Virus record (IMG/VR): IMGVR_UViG_3300008261_003018
Location: 1 to 32,388 of that record
From: a virus
Length of the DNA stretch: 32,388 bases
Strand: one strand, 5' to 3'
Positions within the stretch are counted from its first letter, which is position 1, and the number at the start of each line of letters is the position of its first letter. Under the pieces are notes generated by a model that was not told where the DNA came from, made no database searches, and was given only the letters and a program-made list of their open reading frames with translations. Both the position numbers and the translations under genes were made by a program. Shown here in pieces: positions 3,450 to 14,129 of the stretch.

Positions 3450-3878
3450 ATGAAAACTCATAAAACAACATTTACTGTTTATCCCGAAGATTGTAACTAC
3501 ATGAAGGTGAATGATGGCAGTCCCATGGTTCACGGCGGTACTATGCTATTAAAAATGGATCGGGCAGCAGCAGAATTAGCCCGCCAGTATTTATATGGTA
3601 CAGAATGCGACTCCGCTTTAACAGTTGGCGTAGATGAAGTCAAATTTTTGCACGGAGCAAAGCTTGGTGACTATATAATAATAACAGTTGCCCCGAGCGA
3701 GTTTGGTAAAAAAAGAATGTCGTTTTTAGTTGAATGCCAAGTAGAACTTTGGGGCGGCGAGAGAAAACTAGTTGCATCGGGAGTTTTTAGTTTTTGCTCT
3801 TTTAAGAATGGAAAATCTCATCCTCATAATATTACTATGAATAACAATTCTAATAAAAATAAGGTATATGACATATGA
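3450..3878 (+). CDS. Hotdog-fold acyl-CoA thioesterase-like protein
   Basis: The 142-residue length matches single-hotdog thioesterases. FTVYPEDCNYMKVNDGSPM leads into HGGTMLLKMDRAAAELARQY (28-47), the long central hotdog helix with its GG and an acidic D37. It continues with VDEVKFLHGAKLGDYIIIT, the family's 'V-x-F-x-x-P-x-x-x-G-D' strand. The C-terminal strands end in ASGVFSFCSF, then an asparagine-rich tail. Family members (YciA/BACH-type, 4-hydroxybenzoyl-CoA type) hydrolyse acyl-CoA. Such a gene is unusual in a phage. It follows the glycosyltransferase by 1 nt and overlaps the SLOG gene by 4 nt. It might act in acylating glycans or altering host lipid metabolism; this is inference only. 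Confidence 0.75.
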   Translation: MKTHKTTFTVYPEDCNYMKVNDGSPMVHGGTMLLKMDRAAAELARQYLYGTECDSALTVGVDEVKFLHGAKLGDYIIITVAPSEFGKKRMSFLVECQVELWGGERKLVASGVFSFCSFKNGKSHPHNITMNNNSNKNKVYDI

Positions 3879-4342
3879 TTATTGCTGGAACAGGACATAG
3901 ACCATGCTACTGCCCATGTCTTTATGATGCCAAGCATCCTTGGCTTGTAGAAAAGAAAAAACAGTTACGGGACTCTTTAGTTGCTTACGGGCCTTCGCTT
4001 GTTATTACGGGCATGGCTATCGGTTGGGATACTTGGTTAGCACAAGAGGCTCTATTTTTAGATATACCTATTGCGTGCTATATTCCTTTTCCGGGACAAC
4101 AGAATAAATGGCCGAAAGAATCCCGTATGGAATACGATCATATTGTTTCGCGGGCTAAAATAGTAAAAAACATTAGCGACTCGTACTCCAAAAATGCATT
4201 TTTTAAACGTGATGAAGCAATGATTGATGATTGCACTCAGGTATTTGCACTCTGGAATAGCGAAGAAGTTAAATCGGGCGGGACTTATCATACTGTTCAA
4301 TACGCTTTATCTAAGGGTAAACCTATTACAAATTTTTGGTGA
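3875..4342 (+). CDS. SLOG-family Rossmann protein (YpsA/DUF1273-like)
   Basis: This 155-residue protein starts MIIAGTGHRP, the diagnostic N-terminal strand-loop of the TGHRP branch of the SLOG superfamily (DUF1273/YpsA-like). It continues with VITGMAIGWDTWLAQEAL, the 'GMA-x-G-x-D-x-x-A' nucleotide-binding turn, and PIACYIPFPGQQ. The C-terminal SGGTYHTVQYALSKGKPI corresponds to the last strand-helix with a conserved GGT. SLOG proteins bind nucleotides or ADP-ribose-like ligands, and several act as sensors or effectors in conflict systems. Phage copies are common, but their role is unproven. It overlaps the thioesterase by 4 nt (ATGA). Confidence 0.8.
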   Translation: MIIAGTGHRPCYCPCLYDAKHPWLVEKKKQLRDSLVAYGPSLVITGMAIGWDTWLAQEALFLDIPIACYIPFPGQQNKWPKESRMEYDHIVSRAKIVKNISDSYSKNAFFKRDEAMIDDCTQVFALWNSEEVKSGGTYHTVQYALSKGKPITNFW

Positions 4343-8534: not shown

Positions 8535-8573
8535 TTGACAGCCTGCTTTTTTCTTCTATAATGATTTAGAAGA
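8535..8573 (+). promoter_or_regulatory. Sigma70-type promoter for NAMPT with overlapping inverted repeat
   Basis: TTGACA (8535-8540) and TATAAT (8557-8562) are spaced by 16 nt in the same GC-TTGACA / TATAAT-GA context as the 7236 and 11476 promoters. A perfect 7-bp inverted repeat, TCTTCTA (8552-8558) and TAGAAGA (8567-8573), straddles the -10 box. Its right arm lies at the expected start site, a position suited to an operator. The leader to ATG 8610 is about 40 nt and contains GAGGG (8601-8605). Confidence 0.85.
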
Positions 8574-8609: not shown

Positions 8610-10091
8610 ATGAAAGTTTTACCAGTTTTATTATCGGACAGTTATAAGCAGTTTCATAACAAGATGTACCCAAAGGGTATGACTAAGCTCTACAGTAACA
8701 TGACTCCTAGAAGCTTTAAGCGTCTAGGCTGTGATAAAGCGGTATGGTTCGGCTTGCAATATTACATTCAAGAATATCTTGTTGGACAATGGCGAACTAA
8801 TTTCTTTAATAAACCACTAGAAGAAGTTTTGGCCGAGTATAAGCGTTTTCACAAACACTTTAGCTTTACCGATGTAGATACTGAACACATTGAAAAGCTG
8901 CATAAGCTTCAATATTTACCAATAGAAATTAAGGCATTGCCCGAGGGTACTCTTGTTCCCGAAAAAGTTCCTTTCTTTACTATTACAAATACTCATCCAG
9001 CCTTTGGTTGGCTTGTCAATTTCCTAGAAACTCAAATGTCAACGGTTATTTGGGATATGACAACAGTAGCAACTATTGCATATAGGTATCGCAAGCTGTT
9101 GGACAAGTGGGCGGAAAAGACCGGAGACCCATCGTTCGTGCAATGGCAGGGGCATGACTTCTGTATGCGTGGCCGAAGCAGTATTGAATCGACATACAAC
9201 CAAGCAGGGCACTTGCTATCGTTTACGGGCACTGATACTATTCCTGCGGTATTGATGTTAGAAGAATATTACGATGCAAATATCGAAACAGAATTAGTGG
9301 GTTCTAGCGTACCGGCGAGTGAACACAGCGTTATGACTAGCTACGGTAAAGAAGATGAAATTAAGGCGTTTGAAAGATTGTTAGATCAATTCCCCGAAGG
9401 AATTATTTCTATTGTCAGTGATAGTTTCGATCTTTGGAAAGTATGTACTGAATACGTGGTTACACTTAAAGACAAGATTATGGCTCGCAATGGCAAGCTG
9501 GTAATTAGACCTGACAGTGGAGATCCTGTAGATATCCTGTGCGGTACTATTGTAGGCCCGATAGATTATAACTTTACAGTAACAAACGCAGAAATCGGTG
9601 TTGTCGAACTTTTATGGAACGTATTCGGCGGAACCGTGAACGAAAAAGGTTATAAGGTACTAGACCCGCACATTGGAGTCATTTATGGCGACAGCATTAC
9701 TCTTGATAGGGCAGAACAAATTTGCCGAAGGCTTGAAGCTAAAGGCTTTGCTAGCACTAATGTAGTTCTTGGAATCGGTAGTTACACATATAACTATAAT
9801 ACTAGAGACTCTTTAGGTATTGCAGTCAAGAGTACATATTGCGAAGTTGTAGAGAATGGATTCGTTGAAAAGCGTGAAATTTTTAAAGATCCTGTAACTG
9901 ATGACGGAACCAAGAAATCGGCTCGTGGGCTATTATGTGTCAAGAGAAACGAAAACGGTGAACTTTACCTAAAGGATAGATGTACTGAGGAAGAAGAGCG
10001 TAACGAATCGTTACTTACTACAGTATTTCATAATGGAAATTACATAGTAGACTCGTTCGCCGCTATCAAGCAAAGATTGCAAGGAGCTTAA
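8610..10091 (+). CDS. nadV: Nicotinamide phosphoribosyltransferase (NAMPT)
   Basis: The enzyme condenses nicotinamide with PRPP to make NMN, the rate-limiting step of NAD salvage. The 493-residue length equals that of the animal and bacterial enzymes. Expected motifs are present. LLSDSYKQFH carries D10/Y12 of the nicotinamide pocket. GTDT carries D209, and ASEHS carries H239, the histidine phosphorylated in catalysis. SDSFDLWKV is also present, and RPDSGDP carries R300 and D302, which hold PRPP. GAGGG at 8601-8605 and a dedicated promoter drive it. Phage NAMPT is known from large phages such as KVP40, where it supports NAD supply and can offset NAD-depleting defences. No NMN adenylyltransferase is seen in the window, so the host or a gene elsewhere must finish the pathway. 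Confidence 0.95.
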   Translation: MKVLPVLLSDSYKQFHNKMYPKGMTKLYSNMTPRSFKRLGCDKAVWFGLQYYIQEYLVGQWRTNFFNKPLEEVLAEYKRFHKHFSFTDVDTEHIEKLHKLQYLPIEIKALPEGTLVPEKVPFFTITNTHPAFGWLVNFLETQMSTVIWDMTTVATIAYRYRKLLDKWAEKTGDPSFVQWQGHDFCMRGRSSIESTYNQAGHLLSFTGTDTIPAVLMLEEYYDANIETELVGSSVPASEHSVMTSYGKEDEIKAFERLLDQFPEGIISIVSDSFDLWKVCTEYVVTLKDKIMARNGKLVIRPDSGDPVDILCGTIVGPIDYNFTVTNAEIGVVELLWNVFGGTVNEKGYKVLDPHIGVIYGDSITLDRAEQICRRLEAKGFASTNVVLGIGSYTYNYNTRDSLGIAVKSTYCEVVENGFVEKREIFKDPVTDDGTKKSARGLLCVKRNENGELYLKDRCTEEEERNESLLTTVFHNGNYIVDSFAAIKQRLQGA

Positions 10092-10469: not shown

Positions 10470-11474
10470 ATGACAAAACAATTATTGAAAAATCACGTAG
10501 CTATTCTTCTTGATACATCTGGATCTATGTCTAGCATTATTAAACAGATGCAAAAAGTATTAGAGCAAAGAATAGAATTTCTTCGAAAGAAAAGTCTAGA
10601 ATTTAATCAAGAAACCCGTGTATCAATTTATACATTCAATAATAGGTCGGAGTGTGTTGTATATGACACAGATGTTACACGGCCTATCGATCTAGGAAAT
10701 ATTAGGGCTAGCGGCCAAACTGCATTACTGGACTGTTTAGATCAATCTATTCGCGAGCTAGAACTACTTCCGGAAATTCATGGAGACCATGCGTATATTG
10801 TTTATATTCTGTCGGATGGATATGAAAATGCATCTGTTGTAAATAAGGCAAGTCTTTTGCAAAAACTGAAAAATTTTAAAGATAACTGGACTATCGCAGC
10901 TTACGTTCCAAATATGGATGCCGCTTTATATCTACAAGGATATGGAGTTCCAAAGGGCAATATTGAACGCTGGGATGCCGATAAGACTGGTATTGACGAA
11001 GTTGAAACGACTTTTGACAAGTCTATGACTACATACATGAGTAATCGTCAGTTGGGAATACGATCTTCTCAAACAGTTTTTTCGGGCCTGCAAGACGTTA
11101 ATTCAACCAATGTAACTCAAGTGCTAAACGAAGTCTCTAAGAATTCATTCGAAATTGTTATTAATGAAGATGTTAAGGCATTATGGATTCGCGATATTGT
11201 GGAATCCAAAACCAAAAAGAAATACGTTAAAGGTAATTCATATTACGAATTAGTAAAGAACGAACATGTACAGCCGTCGAAAAACATTATGATCCAGAAT
11301 AAAAAGACCGGCAAGATTTACTCCGGAGCGAATGCAAGGCAGTTGCTTGGATTGCCATCAAATGCCGAAGTAAAATTAAATGTTGGTGATTATGGCGAAT
11401 GGTTGGTTTATATCCAAAGTTCATCACATAACAGAAACGTAATTCCGAAACAGAGAATTTTGGTGTTAAAATAG
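10470..11474 (+). CDS. Von Willebrand factor type A domain protein with intact MIDAS
   Basis: The first two thirds form a VWA domain. NHVAILLDTSGSMSS carries the metal-ion-dependent adhesion site D15-x-S17-x-S19, GQTALLD supplies T84, and VYILSDGYENAS supplies D116. All five MIDAS ligands are present, so divalent-metal-dependent protein binding is likely. The C-terminal part (about 210-334) is separate: an alpha/beta segment SFEIVINEDVKALWIRDIVE, then a basic region ending RNVIPKQRILVLK. It has no signal peptide or membrane segment, so it should act in the cytoplasm. VWA proteins of phages and tellurite-type clusters often scaffold complexes with metallophosphoesterases or ATPases, and a metallophosphoesterase lies two genes downstream. 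Its TAG stop abuts the promoter at 11476. Confidence 0.85.
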   Translation: MTKQLLKNHVAILLDTSGSMSSIIKQMQKVLEQRIEFLRKKSLEFNQETRVSIYTFNNRSECVVYDTDVTRPIDLGNIRASGQTALLDCLDQSIRELELLPEIHGDHAYIVYILSDGYENASVVNKASLLQKLKNFKDNWTIAAYVPNMDAALYLQGYGVPKGNIERWDADKTGIDEVETTFDKSMTTYMSNRQLGIRSSQTVFSGLQDVNSTNVTQVLNEVSKNSFEIVINEDVKALWIRDIVESKTKKKYVKGNSYYELVKNEHVQPSKNIMIQNKKTGKIYSGANARQLLGLPSNAEVKLNVGDYGEWLVYIQSSSHNRNVIPKQRILVLK

Positions 11475-11475
11475 C

Positions 11476-11503
11476 TTGACACGGCTTAAAGCCGTGGTAT
11501 AAT
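11476..11503 (+). promoter_or_regulatory. Sigma70-type promoter for the Thg1-like gene with a palindrome in its spacer
   Basis: TTGACA (11476-11481) and TATAAT (11498-11503), 16 nt apart, with TG (11495-11496) giving an extended -10. An exact palindrome, CACGGCTT-A-AAGCCGTG (11480-11496), occupies the spacer and the last two bases of the -35 box. It has the geometry of a repressor or activator operator. The expected start near 11509-11511 leaves a leader of about 12 nt that begins at the ribosome site GAGG (11510-11513). No T-run follows, so a terminator is unlikely. Confidence 0.85.
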
Positions 11504-11521
11504 GAGAAAGAGGTTAAAATA

Positions 11522-12235
11522 ATGGAAATCGGTGATAGAATGAAAGAATATGAAAAGGCGTATCGCATGGCAATAATGCCAAACTGCCCGATCATGATTC
11601 GCATCGACGGAAAAGCTTTTCATAGTTTTACTTCAAACTTAAAGAAACCTTATGACGAAGGTTTTATGAAGGCTATGGACACTGTGACTTATCAGCTTTG
11701 TATTTTTAGTAATGCAGTTCTTGGGTACACACAGAGCGATGAAATAACTCTCGTGCTATCCAAAGAATCGCCGGAACAAGAATTATTTTTCAGTGGAAAA
11801 ATACAAAAGCTATGCTCTGTTCTTGCATCCTTTGCAACCTATACTTTCAATAACATTTTCAAAAACGAAGGAAAAATGGCACTATTTGACTGCCGTGTGT
11901 TTTCCGTGCCAAATTTATCCGAAGCTACAAACTGTTTGTTATGGCGGGAAATGGATGCAACACGAAACTCAATTCAAATGGCCGCAAGAAATTATTATTC
12001 ACACAAAGAGTGTAATAATAAAAACTTTTCAGACCTTAGTGATATGCTTATAAATATAGGTATTAACTGGAATAATTATCCCGCGAGATTTAAGCGAGGT
12101 AATTATCTAAAAATGTTAAGAGATGATGCCACTGGAAAAAGAACGTATTGCCCGCTAGAAATAAAACAGCTAACACAATACAGTCATGAAGAAAGAATCA
12201 AAATTTTATTTGGAGATTTAGCGAATGTCAGTTAA
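11522..12235 (+). CDS. Thg1-like 3'-5' RNA polymerase (tRNA-His guanylyltransferase family)
   Basis: Thg1 enzymes add nucleotides to RNA 5' ends in the 3'-5' direction; Thg1-like proteins repair truncated tRNA 5' ends. The 237-residue protein has the palm-domain carboxylates in their proper motifs: MIRIDGKAFHSF (D29) and GYTQSDEITLVL (D73, E74). CRVFSVP and DATRNSIQMAARNYYS follow, and NYPARFKRGNYLK matches the late family segment. The eukaryotic HINNLYN motif is absent, as in bacterial, archaeal and viral Thg1-like proteins. It has its own promoter and GAGG ribosome site (11510-11513). No tRNA gene is visible in the window. It overlaps the next gene by 11 nt. The family is certain; the substrate (tRNA-His addition or 5'-end repair) is not. 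Confidence 0.92.
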   Translation: MEIGDRMKEYEKAYRMAIMPNCPIMIRIDGKAFHSFTSNLKKPYDEGFMKAMDTVTYQLCIFSNAVLGYTQSDEITLVLSKESPEQELFFSGKIQKLCSVLASFATYTFNNIFKNEGKMALFDCRVFSVPNLSEATNCLLWREMDATRNSIQMAARNYYSHKECNNKNFSDLSDMLINIGINWNNYPARFKRGNYLKMLRDDATGKRTYCPLEIKQLTQYSHEERIKILFGDLANVS

Positions 12236-12815
12236 TATATTTTTTACTTCCGATTCTCATTATGGGCATTCGAATATAGCAGGCCCGAAAGTAAGTTCAT
12301 GGAGTTCTGGTTATCGTAATTTTGATAGCACTTACGATATGAACGAAGCATTGATTGAATCTTTCAATGAGGCCGGTAGAAATGATATTATCTATCATCT
12401 TGGTGACTGGTCTTTCGGAGGAAAACACAACATTGAAAAGTTCCGCAAGAGCATTCAATGCGAAAATATTTTCCTTGTTACGGGCAACCACGACAAGCAT
12501 GTATACGATCACAGAGATTTGTTTAAATGGATAAAGCCCGTATGGGAAGGTAAGATTCAAGATACATATTTTTATCTTCATCATTACGCACAACGGGTAT
12601 GGAACATGTCTCACAGAGGATCGGTTATGCTTTACGGGCATAGTCACGGAAGTCTTCCGGATGATCCAAACTCATTGTCTATCGATGTTGGTTGGGACAC
12701 CGAACTGTACGGACATAAAAAACATACTCTGTATCATTATGATGAAATTATGTACATCATGAAACAGAAGCAATGGAAACCGGTTGATCACCACAACACT
12801 AATACTACGGAGTAA
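12225..12815 (+). CDS. Calcineurin-like metallophosphoesterase
   Basis: The five metallophosphoesterase motifs occur in order in 196 residues: SDSHYGH (D10, H12), LGDWSFGG (G60-D61), TGNHDKH (N88, H89), HHYAQ (H in the third block), and YGHSHG (H139, H141). A two-metal active site is therefore intact. Family members hydrolyse phosphomonoesters, phosphodiesters or 2',3'-cyclic phosphates; this single-domain type is often annotated simply as phosphoesterase in phages. The start lies 11 nt inside the Thg1-like gene and has no strong ribosome site of its own beyond TTTGGAGA (12209-12216), suggesting coupled translation. The pairing with Thg1-like and kinase genes makes an RNA end substrate attractive, but this is inference. 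Confidence 0.9.
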   Translation: MSVNIFFTSDSHYGHSNIAGPKVSSWSSGYRNFDSTYDMNEALIESFNEAGRNDIIYHLGDWSFGGKHNIEKFRKSIQCENIFLVTGNHDKHVYDHRDLFKWIKPVWEGKIQDTYFYLHHYAQRVWNMSHRGSVMLYGHSHGSLPDDPNSLSIDVGWDTELYGHKKHTLYHYDEIMYIMKQKQWKPVDHHNTNTTE

Positions 12816-12819
12816 GAAA

Positions 12820-12987
12820 ATGGAAAAGTGCTCAAAGTGCAATTATGACGGACATTGGAAAACCCCAAAATCTAAGTATATGATTTGTTACAGATGCGGA
12901 AAACAGTGGATTCCGCAGAAACCAGAAAAAGAAAAGAATGAATATATTAGCGTAATTGAGAAAGTTTATGAAAAAGTGGAATTTTAA
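12820..12987 (+). CDS. 55-residue zinc-ribbon protein
   Basis: The frame is open further upstream, but CGGAGTAAG (12809-12817) places the start at ATG 12820. The product is a minimal zinc ribbon, C4-x2-C7 and C23-x2-C26 (KCSKCNYDGHW, then ICYRCGKQW), followed by a lysine/glutamate-rich helix (KPEKEKNEYISVIEKVYEKV). Such tiny ribbons usually bind nucleic acid or a polymerase partner. It overlaps the next gene by 20 nt. Confidence 0.7.
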   Translation: MEKCSKCNYDGHWKTPKSKYMICYRCGKQWIPQKPEKEKNEYISVIEKVYEKVEF

Positions 12988-13219
12988 ACCTAACCAAATA
13001 ACGGCCATATTAATTGTCTTCGGCGGTATTTTTTTTGTTCTATATGACATGTTTGCCTTTTACTTCTTTACACCAGAAGACACAATAAGTTATGTAGTAA
13101 ATGAATGGGCGTGGGCAAATCCATTGGGGATTTTTATTGCGGGCTGTGTTTTGGGCGGATTAACAGTACACTTTTTATCATGGGCACCATTAGAAAAACA
13201 GGTAAATAAAAATGAGTAA
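12968..13219 (+). CDS. Small two-helix membrane protein
   Basis: ATG 12968 is preferred over an upstream TTG because GAGAAAG lies at 12958-12964. The 83-residue protein has two clear hydrophobic segments: ITAILIVFGGIFFVLYDMF, extended by AFYFF, and after a short acidic loop (TPEDTISYVVNEWAW), PLGIFIAGCVLGGLTVHFL. The C-terminus is LEKQVNKNE. A basic start (MKKWNFK) suggests the N-terminus stays inside, so both ends are cytoplasmic. Composition does not single out a holin, and no lysis enzyme is nearby. It is embedded between the zinc-ribbon and kinase genes with overlaps on both sides. Function unknown. Confidence 0.65.
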   Translation: MKKWNFKPNQITAILIVFGGIFFVLYDMFAFYFFTPEDTISYVVNEWAWANPLGIFIAGCVLGGLTVHFLSWAPLEKQVNKNE

Positions 13220-13667
13220 ATTGACTATAGTTAGAGGTTTGCCGGGTTCCGGAAAAAGCACTTTGGCACAAAAGCTTGCAGAAGCTGACGGAAATACTGT
13301 TGTGCTAGAAGCAGATCAGTTTTTTATGATTGAAGATGAATATAAGTTCACTTTCGACTTTTTGACGGTGGCACATTCTTGGTGCATGGGACAAGCTTTT
13401 TACAATTTGTTTCGCGGTAAAAATGTAATTGTGGCAAACACTTTCGTAGAATATTGGACAATCGACAAGTATATTGAAGCTGCTTTTAAGGCGAAGATTC
13501 CTTGGGAAATTGTTGAACCAAAAACGAAGTGGAAAAATGATGCCGCATTATTGTCAGAAAAGAATGTACATAATGTAAGTCAGGCCGCAATCCAGAAAAT
13601 GCATGATAAGTGGGAAAGCACTAAGGATATAATGGCTAAGCTTACTGCTAAAGGCTGGGTTGTTTAA
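13212..13667 (+). CDS. P-loop kinase of the N4BP2L / T4 polynucleotide-kinase type (AAA_33)
   Basis: The 151-residue protein begins LTIVRGLPGSGKSTLA, with Walker A at residues 9-17, then VVLEADQFFM, where the E/D-A-D replaces the 'S/T-D-D' after strand 2. It then has the AHSWC helix, NVIVANTFVEYW (strand 3), WEIVEPKTKWKNDA and SEKNVHNVSQAAIQKMHDKW. This order matches the N4BP2-like kinase family, whose human member has 5'-polynucleotide kinase activity, and is close to the kinase half of T4 Pnkp. It lacks a fused phosphatase; the metallophosphoesterase two kilobases upstream in the same operon could serve that purpose. Nucleic acid 5'-phosphorylation is the best guess, but small-molecule kinases share the fold. 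Confidence 0.82.
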   Translation: MSKLTIVRGLPGSGKSTLAQKLAEADGNTVVLEADQFFMIEDEYKFTFDFLTVAHSWCMGQAFYNLFRGKNVIVANTFVEYWTIDKYIEAAFKAKIPWEIVEPKTKWKNDAALLSEKNVHNVSQAAIQKMHDKWESTKDIMAKLTAKGWVV

Positions 13668-13834
13668 TGAGTAAGATCGGTATTTTTTTAGCTATATTGC
13701 TTTATCTATTTATTGCAATCGGTAATTTAAAAGATAAAGATTATCCACATGCCATGATGTGGTTATGTTATTGTTTAGCAAACGTGGCTTTGCTATGGTA
13801 TGAATATACAAAAGGTGTTTATGAATTACAATAA
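13667..13834 (+). CDS. 55-residue membrane peptide
   Basis: ATG 13667 overlaps the kinase stop codon (TAATG), and the frame closes with TAA at 13832-13834, inside the SSB gene. The peptide has two hydrophobic segments: IGIFLAILLYLFIAIG at the N-terminus, and MMWLCYCLANVALLWY after the loop NLKDKDYPHA, ending EYTKGVYELQ. It is probably an inner-membrane hairpin. Coupled translation from the kinase is likely because no separate ribosome site is evident. No family recognised. Confidence 0.6.
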   Translation: MSKIGIFLAILLYLFIAIGNLKDKDYPHAMMWLCYCLANVALLWYEYTKGVYELQ

Positions 13835-14129
13835 AGTTTTAATTGGTGGACGTTTAACCAAAGACTGCACTTTAACTACTACCGCCAGCGGAACAAAAGT
13901 ATTAGAATTTTCTATTGCTTCAACCGATAGGTATGGAGATAAAGAAGAAGTTCTGTATATGGACTGTGCTATGTTCGGAGACAGATGCGAAAAGGTTGCT
14001 CAATACTTTGTCAAGGGCAAGCAGATGTTAGTAGACGGAAAGCTAAGGCTGGAAACATGGACTGGTTCGGACGGTGTTAAGCGTTACAAGCATTCAGTTG
14101 TTGTCGATACTTTTAGTTTTGCGGGATAA
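13821..14129 (+). CDS. ssb: Single-stranded DNA-binding protein (OB fold)
   Basis: AAGG at 13811-13814 supports ATG 13821, giving 102 residues; an upstream in-frame start at 13800 is less likely. The SSB pattern is clear: MNYNKVLIGGRLTKDCTL, then VLEFSIASTD, then VLYMDCAMFGDRCEKVAQYF, then KGKQMLVDGKLRLETW and a final strand YKHSVVVDTFSF. It is an OB fold only; the acidic C-terminal tail used by host SSB to recruit partners is missing. It opens the replication module (SSB, helicase, primase, polymerase). A second, shorter SSB-like protein is encoded at 24176. Confidence 0.88.
   Translation: MNYNKVLIGGRLTKDCTLTTTASGTKVLEFSIASTDRYGDKEEVLYMDCAMFGDRCEKVAQYFVKGKQMLVDGKLRLETWTGSDGVKRYKHSVVVDTFSFAG

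Follow-up and report, generated by a model that had tools for sequence, protein, structure and literature searches.

Genes for Thg1-like proteins lie together with polynucleotide kinase (PNK) genes, in some cases also with macro or RNA ligase genes, in prokaryotic neighbourhoods published by Anantharaman et al. in 2010 (PMC2904730), and the same work proposed for bacteria that the kinase supplies Thg1's 5'-phosphate. For jumbo phages, Iyer et al. (2021; PMC7824862) describe sets of RNA-repair genes that include Thg1, PNK and RlaP as well as calcineurin-like phosphatases, and present Thg1 as sporadic and the phosphatases as found in few of these phages. The DNA studied here, a 32,388-base virus fragment (IMG/VR record IMGVR_UViG_3300008261_003018; hereafter the window), carries a block of six genes on the + strand, spanning 11476 to 13834 with its promoter, in which a Thg1-like protein, a metallophosphoesterase (MPE) and a P-loop kinase are accompanied by a zinc-ribbon protein and two small hydrophobic proteins. 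We consider it fairly probable that this block supplies the end-healing and 5'-refilling functions of a phage kit that repairs RNA, mainly tRNA, and so counters host ribonucleases.

The block resembles the neighbourhoods reported in 2010 in that Thg1 adjoins a PNK-family P-loop kinase, there sometimes with an RNA ligase, and in the 5'-phosphate logic that this implies. It differs from them as a phage cluster beside replication genes that adds a COG4186-type MPE, a zinc ribbon and small membrane proteins, and in that the ligase and RlaP of the window's lineage lie far from it. The jumbo-phage sets share with this lineage tRNAs, an ATP-grasp RNA ligase, RlaP, a polynucleotide kinase, a calcineurin-like phosphatase and Thg1, but such an ordered block was not found in the part of that paper considered here (PMC7824862). 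In the T4 repair of tRNA-Lys by Pnkp and Rnl1, a phage 5' kinase, a 3' phosphatase and a ligase follow the same logic, and the fold of the window's kinase matches T4 PNK; here, however, the kinase stands alone, an MPE takes the place of the HAD phosphatase, Thg1 is added, and the ligase of the relatives belongs to PF09414/phrog_968 and not to Rnl1. Bacterial Pnkp and the Pnkp1/Rnl/Hen1 complex likewise unite three activities, those of a kinase (matched by the window's kinase in Pnkp1 and CthPnkp), an MPE phosphatase and a ligase, whereas the window has separate polypeptides and nothing of Hen1 was seen. Its MPE family is related in sequence to aq_1665 (1xm7) and may be distinct from the Pnkp phosphatase family. 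The preliminary description of this DNA held that the combination was not a described system, which is too strong in view of the 2010 neighbourhoods (PMC2904730) and the phage sets of 2021 (PMC7824862). The novelty holds at most for the exact block, the parts and the idea being already known. The block places Thg1 beside a phosphoesterase and a kinase that could make its 5'-phosphate substrate, and the lineage encodes a ligase, RlaP and tRNAs at other sites. This makes it a compact set for asking whether phages that polymerise in reverse are better able to withstand defences that cut tRNAs.

The three enzymes and their small companions

The first gene (11522-12235) encodes a 237-aa Thg1-like protein of the TLP type, a predicted 3'-5' RNA polymerase, which matches PF04446 (E = 6.6e-32) and phrog_4717 (E = 3e-77). 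Its residues D29, D73 and E74 correspond to the three metal-binding carboxylates of the Bacillus thuringiensis TLP (BtTLP D30, D75 and E76) and are invariant in the alignment, and K42 is the equivalent of BtTLP K43. The nearest solved structure is that of BtTLP (4kgk, profile E = 1e-95), other solved Thg1 structures being matched at 1e-24 to 1e-30, so that by profile the protein lies nearer to bacterial TLP than to the Thg1 of eukaryotes or archaea. A tRNA 5'-repair activity was reported for BtTLP (PMC3701042), and BtTLP-type enzymes repair 5'-truncated tRNAs in vitro (PMC3701042, PMC6471195).

The second gene (12225-12815; 196 aa) encodes an MPE of the COG4186/phrog_547 type (calcineurin-like Pfam match, E = 6e-7; phrog_547, E = 5e-40). 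The complete calcineurin-like phosphoesterase announced in the preliminary description is borne out, with all metal-site motifs intact: DxH, GDxx, GNHD, H and GHxH, with D10, H12, D61, N88, H89, H120, H139 and H141. The best structural matches of its predicted model (pLDDT 92) are aq_1665 (1xm7, Z = 17.9), LpxH, MJ0936 and YfcE; the Pnkp phosphatase domain is not among the structural matches listed, which does not exclude it.

The P-loop kinase (13212-13667) has the Walker A motif GSGKST and the catalytic D35, as well as N76-T77 and H120, and matches AAA_33 (E = 8e-14), phrog_2071 (E = 1e-28) and phrog_505, a polynucleotide kinase family (E = 6e-15). Its predicted model (pLDDT 93) matches 4xrp, 1ly1, 1rrc and 4gp7 with TM of about 0.7; it resembles Pnkp1 of the Pnkp1/Rnl/Hen1 complex, T4 PNK, the CthPnkp kinase and tRNA(Sec) kinase. 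Sequence profiles point to the same families, and tRNA(Sec) kinase fits the fold as well as the PNK-type structures do. In a PADLOC scan the only matches of the kinase were to the AAA portion of a CARF fusion model and, weakly, to mad8, and no defence family was matched by Thg1, the MPE or the membrane proteins.

Between and after these enzymes lie genes for a small zinc-ribbon-like protein with a CxxC...CxxC pattern (12820-12987; 55 aa), an 82-aa protein with two hydrophobic segments (12971-13219) and a 55-aa hydrophobic peptide (13667-13834). Neighbouring genes of the block abut or share 1-17 bases. The six genes and the promoter of the preliminary description are indeed present on the + strand. 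The full block occurs in six other IMG/VR contigs of the same phage lineage (L002-L007), in which the three enzymes have 82-100% protein identity, and L022 holds the portion downstream of its cut MPE. Comparison with three relatives gave dN/dS values that, wherever a value was obtainable, lie at 0.04-0.21 for all genes, among them both membrane open reading frames (ORFs) and the zinc ribbon (0.11-0.15). Because these values are low, the zinc ribbon and the membrane ORFs, like the other genes of the block, are real genes under purifying selection.

Neighbourhoods in other viruses and in bacteria

Relatives of the kinase and of Thg1 were collected with their flanks from IMG/VR, near-duplicates were removed, and the density of neighbours within 3 kb was compared with that at 3-10 kb in the same loci. 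The kinase set was limited to the best 80 matches, so that its rates hold for the nearer part of the family; the comparison covered 69 non-redundant loci. An MPE was found within 3 kb in 24 of these loci, against one match at 3-10 kb (binomial p = 1.3e-10), and RNA ligases gave 24 matches within 3 kb, distributed over 21 loci, against 8 farther away (p = 3.3e-6). When neighbours were clustered without reference to known families, the MPE came out on top, and the next two places were taken by RNA-ligase groups; one group, of four members, resembles the CCA-adding enzyme by eye. The kinase is fused to an Rnl1-type ligase in a single ORF in two cases (L157:11156-12445 and L065:9998-11287). Among isolated phages, Schickermooser and Aeromonas 2L372X have an MPE-Rnl1-kinase run, and PAK_P1, Pyxpy02 and ACP17 have the same three genes with spacer genes between them. 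The recurrent trio occurs in cultured coliphages and is open to experiment now. Kinase and MPE thus form a genuine recurrent pair which Thg1 joins only sometimes, and the linkage to ligases and the fusions favour polynucleotides as the kinase substrate.

Around Thg1 itself (69 loci), repair genes as a whole are concentrated nearby, with 18 near and 8 far (4.55 versus 0.97 per 100 kb; p = 1.4e-4). RNA ligases are near in 7 of these loci and an MPE in 4, the latter not significantly (p = 0.09). That Thg1 adjoins the window's kinase family as a general phage rule was rejected. The same families are found together in L157, with RlaP, MPE, a PF09414 ligase, Thg1 and the kinase-ligase fusion inside 7.3 kb, in L152 (RlaP-kinase-Thg1 plus MPE) and in L026 (Thg1-Rnl, then kinase-Rnl1, then MPE). 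With regard to a conserved neighbourhood, the recurrence of the kinase-MPE pair stands, but the exact block of Thg1, MPE and kinase is conserved in this lineage only, the three last loci being looser versions of it. Of 80 Thg1 loci from bacteria, one has a member of the window's kinase family nearby, and five have another group of P-loop kinases, PNK-like by eye, about 0.5 kb upstream, in agreement with the 2010 report (PMC2904730). The membrane partners that the preliminary description counted as part of the set were not retained as recurrent partners, as small membrane ORFs are not enriched near the kinase (p = 0.72) or Thg1 (p = 0.08) genes elsewhere.

The lineage also encodes other components of RNA repair. 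A PF09414 RNA ligase is present beside tRNAs in the relatives G001, G003 and G004, and each of these three ligase-bearing contigs has 4-11 tRNA matches above the Rfam cut-off. In the 168.8-kb G003, which has 11 such matches and 3 more below the cut-off, the ligase (PF09414, phrog_968) lies directly between tRNA-Phe/tRNA-Met and the RlaP gene, followed by rIIA and rIIB. It is located at 119.4 kb and the block at about 152.4 kb, so that they are some 33 kb apart and not adjacent. A search of G000-G004 for PF09511 (the T4 Rnl1 type) gave no match, but the control gave none either, so that absence is not established. The tRNAs were the sole matches of the Rfam scan. A 118-nt tRNA-like gene, nearly identical in L052 (10907-11024), G004 (C1:23801-23918) and G001 (C1:67397-67514, minus strand), has full acceptor and T arms, but its anticodon region is enlarged by about 40 bases and no anticodon was called in it.

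A putative repair pathway and its alternatives

Sequence comparison establishes the genes, the integrity of their active sites, the repeated association of kinase, MPE and ligase, and the presence of ligase, RlaP and tRNA genes in the lineage; all enzymatic steps, the substrate and any part played by the zinc-ribbon and membrane proteins are inferred. The set probably serves to mend tRNAs cut by bacterial defences. In that case, the cut by a host RNase would leave a 2',3'-cyclic phosphate and a 5'-OH; the MPE would take off the phosphate on the 3' side and the kinase would phosphorylate the 5'-OH. Where nucleotides had been lost on the 5' side and a complementary strand was present, Thg1 could activate the 5'-phosphate and add nucleotides in the 3'-to-5' direction, and the RNA ligase and RlaP, encoded about 33 kb from the block in the relative G003, would refill and seal the break. 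The RNA 5'-end repair operon of the preliminary description is only partly recovered in this scheme. RNA-end healing is backed by the independent neighbourhoods, the two kinase-ligase fusions, the PNK-like fold and the lineage's ligase, RlaP and tRNAs, but the restriction to 5' ends is not, since the recurrence of the kinase-MPE pair with ligases better fits a role in healing both ends, as one half of a cut-and-seal repair. A more elaborate version, a complete two-sided repair line in which kinase and MPE heal the ends, Thg1 refills the 5' side and RlaP the 3' side, the ligase seals, and the zinc-ribbon and membrane proteins hold the healing enzymes at the membrane, seems unlikely; if true, a natural role would have been found for a 3'-5' polymerase of phages.

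Several observations weigh against a repair kit. Thg1 requires a template strand, so that the refilling of a single-stranded anticodon loop would not be possible. R133, a residue that hardly varies in the kinase family, is a lysine in the window, and the MPE fold is common to many phosphoesterases, LpxH and YfcE also being matched. The ligase and RlaP are seen in relatives, the window fragment itself having neither, and the collinear block is seen in one close lineage only, in which all nearby genes are conserved too. Finally, the window's kinase family is near Thg1 in only 1 of the 69 Thg1 loci of other phages. This rarity, set against the strong kinase-MPE linkage, is what would be expected if kinase and MPE were a repair pair and Thg1, the zinc ribbon and the membrane proteins were unrelated early genes that happen to share a run upstream of the replication module. 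The non-significant Thg1-MPE association, the lack of enrichment of small membrane ORFs near either anchor and the collinearity of the entire region in relatives point the same way. Yet the enrichment of RNA-repair genes around Thg1 elsewhere, the joining of the same families with Thg1 in other phages (L157 and L152), and the published bacterial Thg1-PNK neighbourhoods (PMC2904730) make such a coincidence rather unlikely.

The remaining alternatives concern individual enzymes. The MPE, and perhaps the kinase too, might act on small nucleotides, in the degradation of host alarm molecules or in nucleotide recycling: the MPE model matches YfcE and the MJ0936 phosphodiesterase, with Rv0805 and LpxH ranking lower, there are NAMPT and YpsA-type SLOG genes upstream, and a nucleotide kinase is part of the replication module. 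The occurrence of MPE and kinase beside RNA ligases in unrelated phages and the kinase-ligase fusion found twice make this improbable. As for Thg1, the family name and the ability of BtTLP to substitute for yeast Thg1 (PMC6471195) would suit ordinary tRNA-His maturation by G-1 addition, or else a 5' editing of the phage's own tRNAs. We regard both as very improbable, as the sequence is of the TLP type and nearest to BtTLP, no tRNA-His is among the 11 tRNAs called by ARAGORN in the G003 stretches examined, and in the folds of the confident phage tRNAs all seven pairs of the acceptor stem are formed. Such complete stems imply no encoded 5' defect calling for editing, and an editing function was accordingly not retained.

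Promoter, transcription unit and adjoining genes

The block is preceded by a perfect sigma-70-type promoter (TTGACA-N16-TATAAT, 11476-11503, + strand), kept in G001-G004. A perfect palindrome, CACGGCTT-A-AAGCCGTG, extends across its spacer at 11480-11496; in G002 and G003 paired changes preserve its pairing, in G001 and G004 it is imperfect, and it is a possible operator. L002 has neither this promoter nor the VWA gene, and there Thg1 comes immediately after the preceding gene. At the other end, the boundary at 13834 given in the preliminary description is arbitrary: the SSB gene (13824-14129, + strand) overlaps that of the 55-aa hydrophobic peptide, and DnaB, primase and other replication genes come next in the same orientation with no clear terminator, terminator-like sites being no more frequent than in shuffled sequence. 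In view of the SSB overlap, the transcription unit probably extends past 13834 into the replication genes. Perfect TTGACA-N16-TATAAT sites occur three times within 4.3 kb of the window (7236, 8535 and 11476), where they are conserved in relatives, and further ones lie near the tRNAs of G003.

Upstream of the promoter, the window encodes a VWA-domain protein (10470-11474; phrog_26613), the one missing in L002, and NAMPT, an enzyme of NAD salvage (8610-10091, + strand), with its own promoter at 8535. The NAMPT gene is intact in the window and split in two in L005 (6094-8580), as well as in L004 and L006. In L005 the two parts flank a free 258-aa ORF that is homing-endonuclease-like by eye, and the N-terminal part continues past the conserved ASEHSIM with a tail beginning with Cys. 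This arrangement is reminiscent of an intron or of a "fractured gene" of the split-intein kind; no group I intron was found in L005 by Rfam. Farther upstream, at 3875-4339, lies a gene for a YpsA-type SLOG protein (PF06908, E = 5e-14), which PADLOC weakly identified as ShosA-like.

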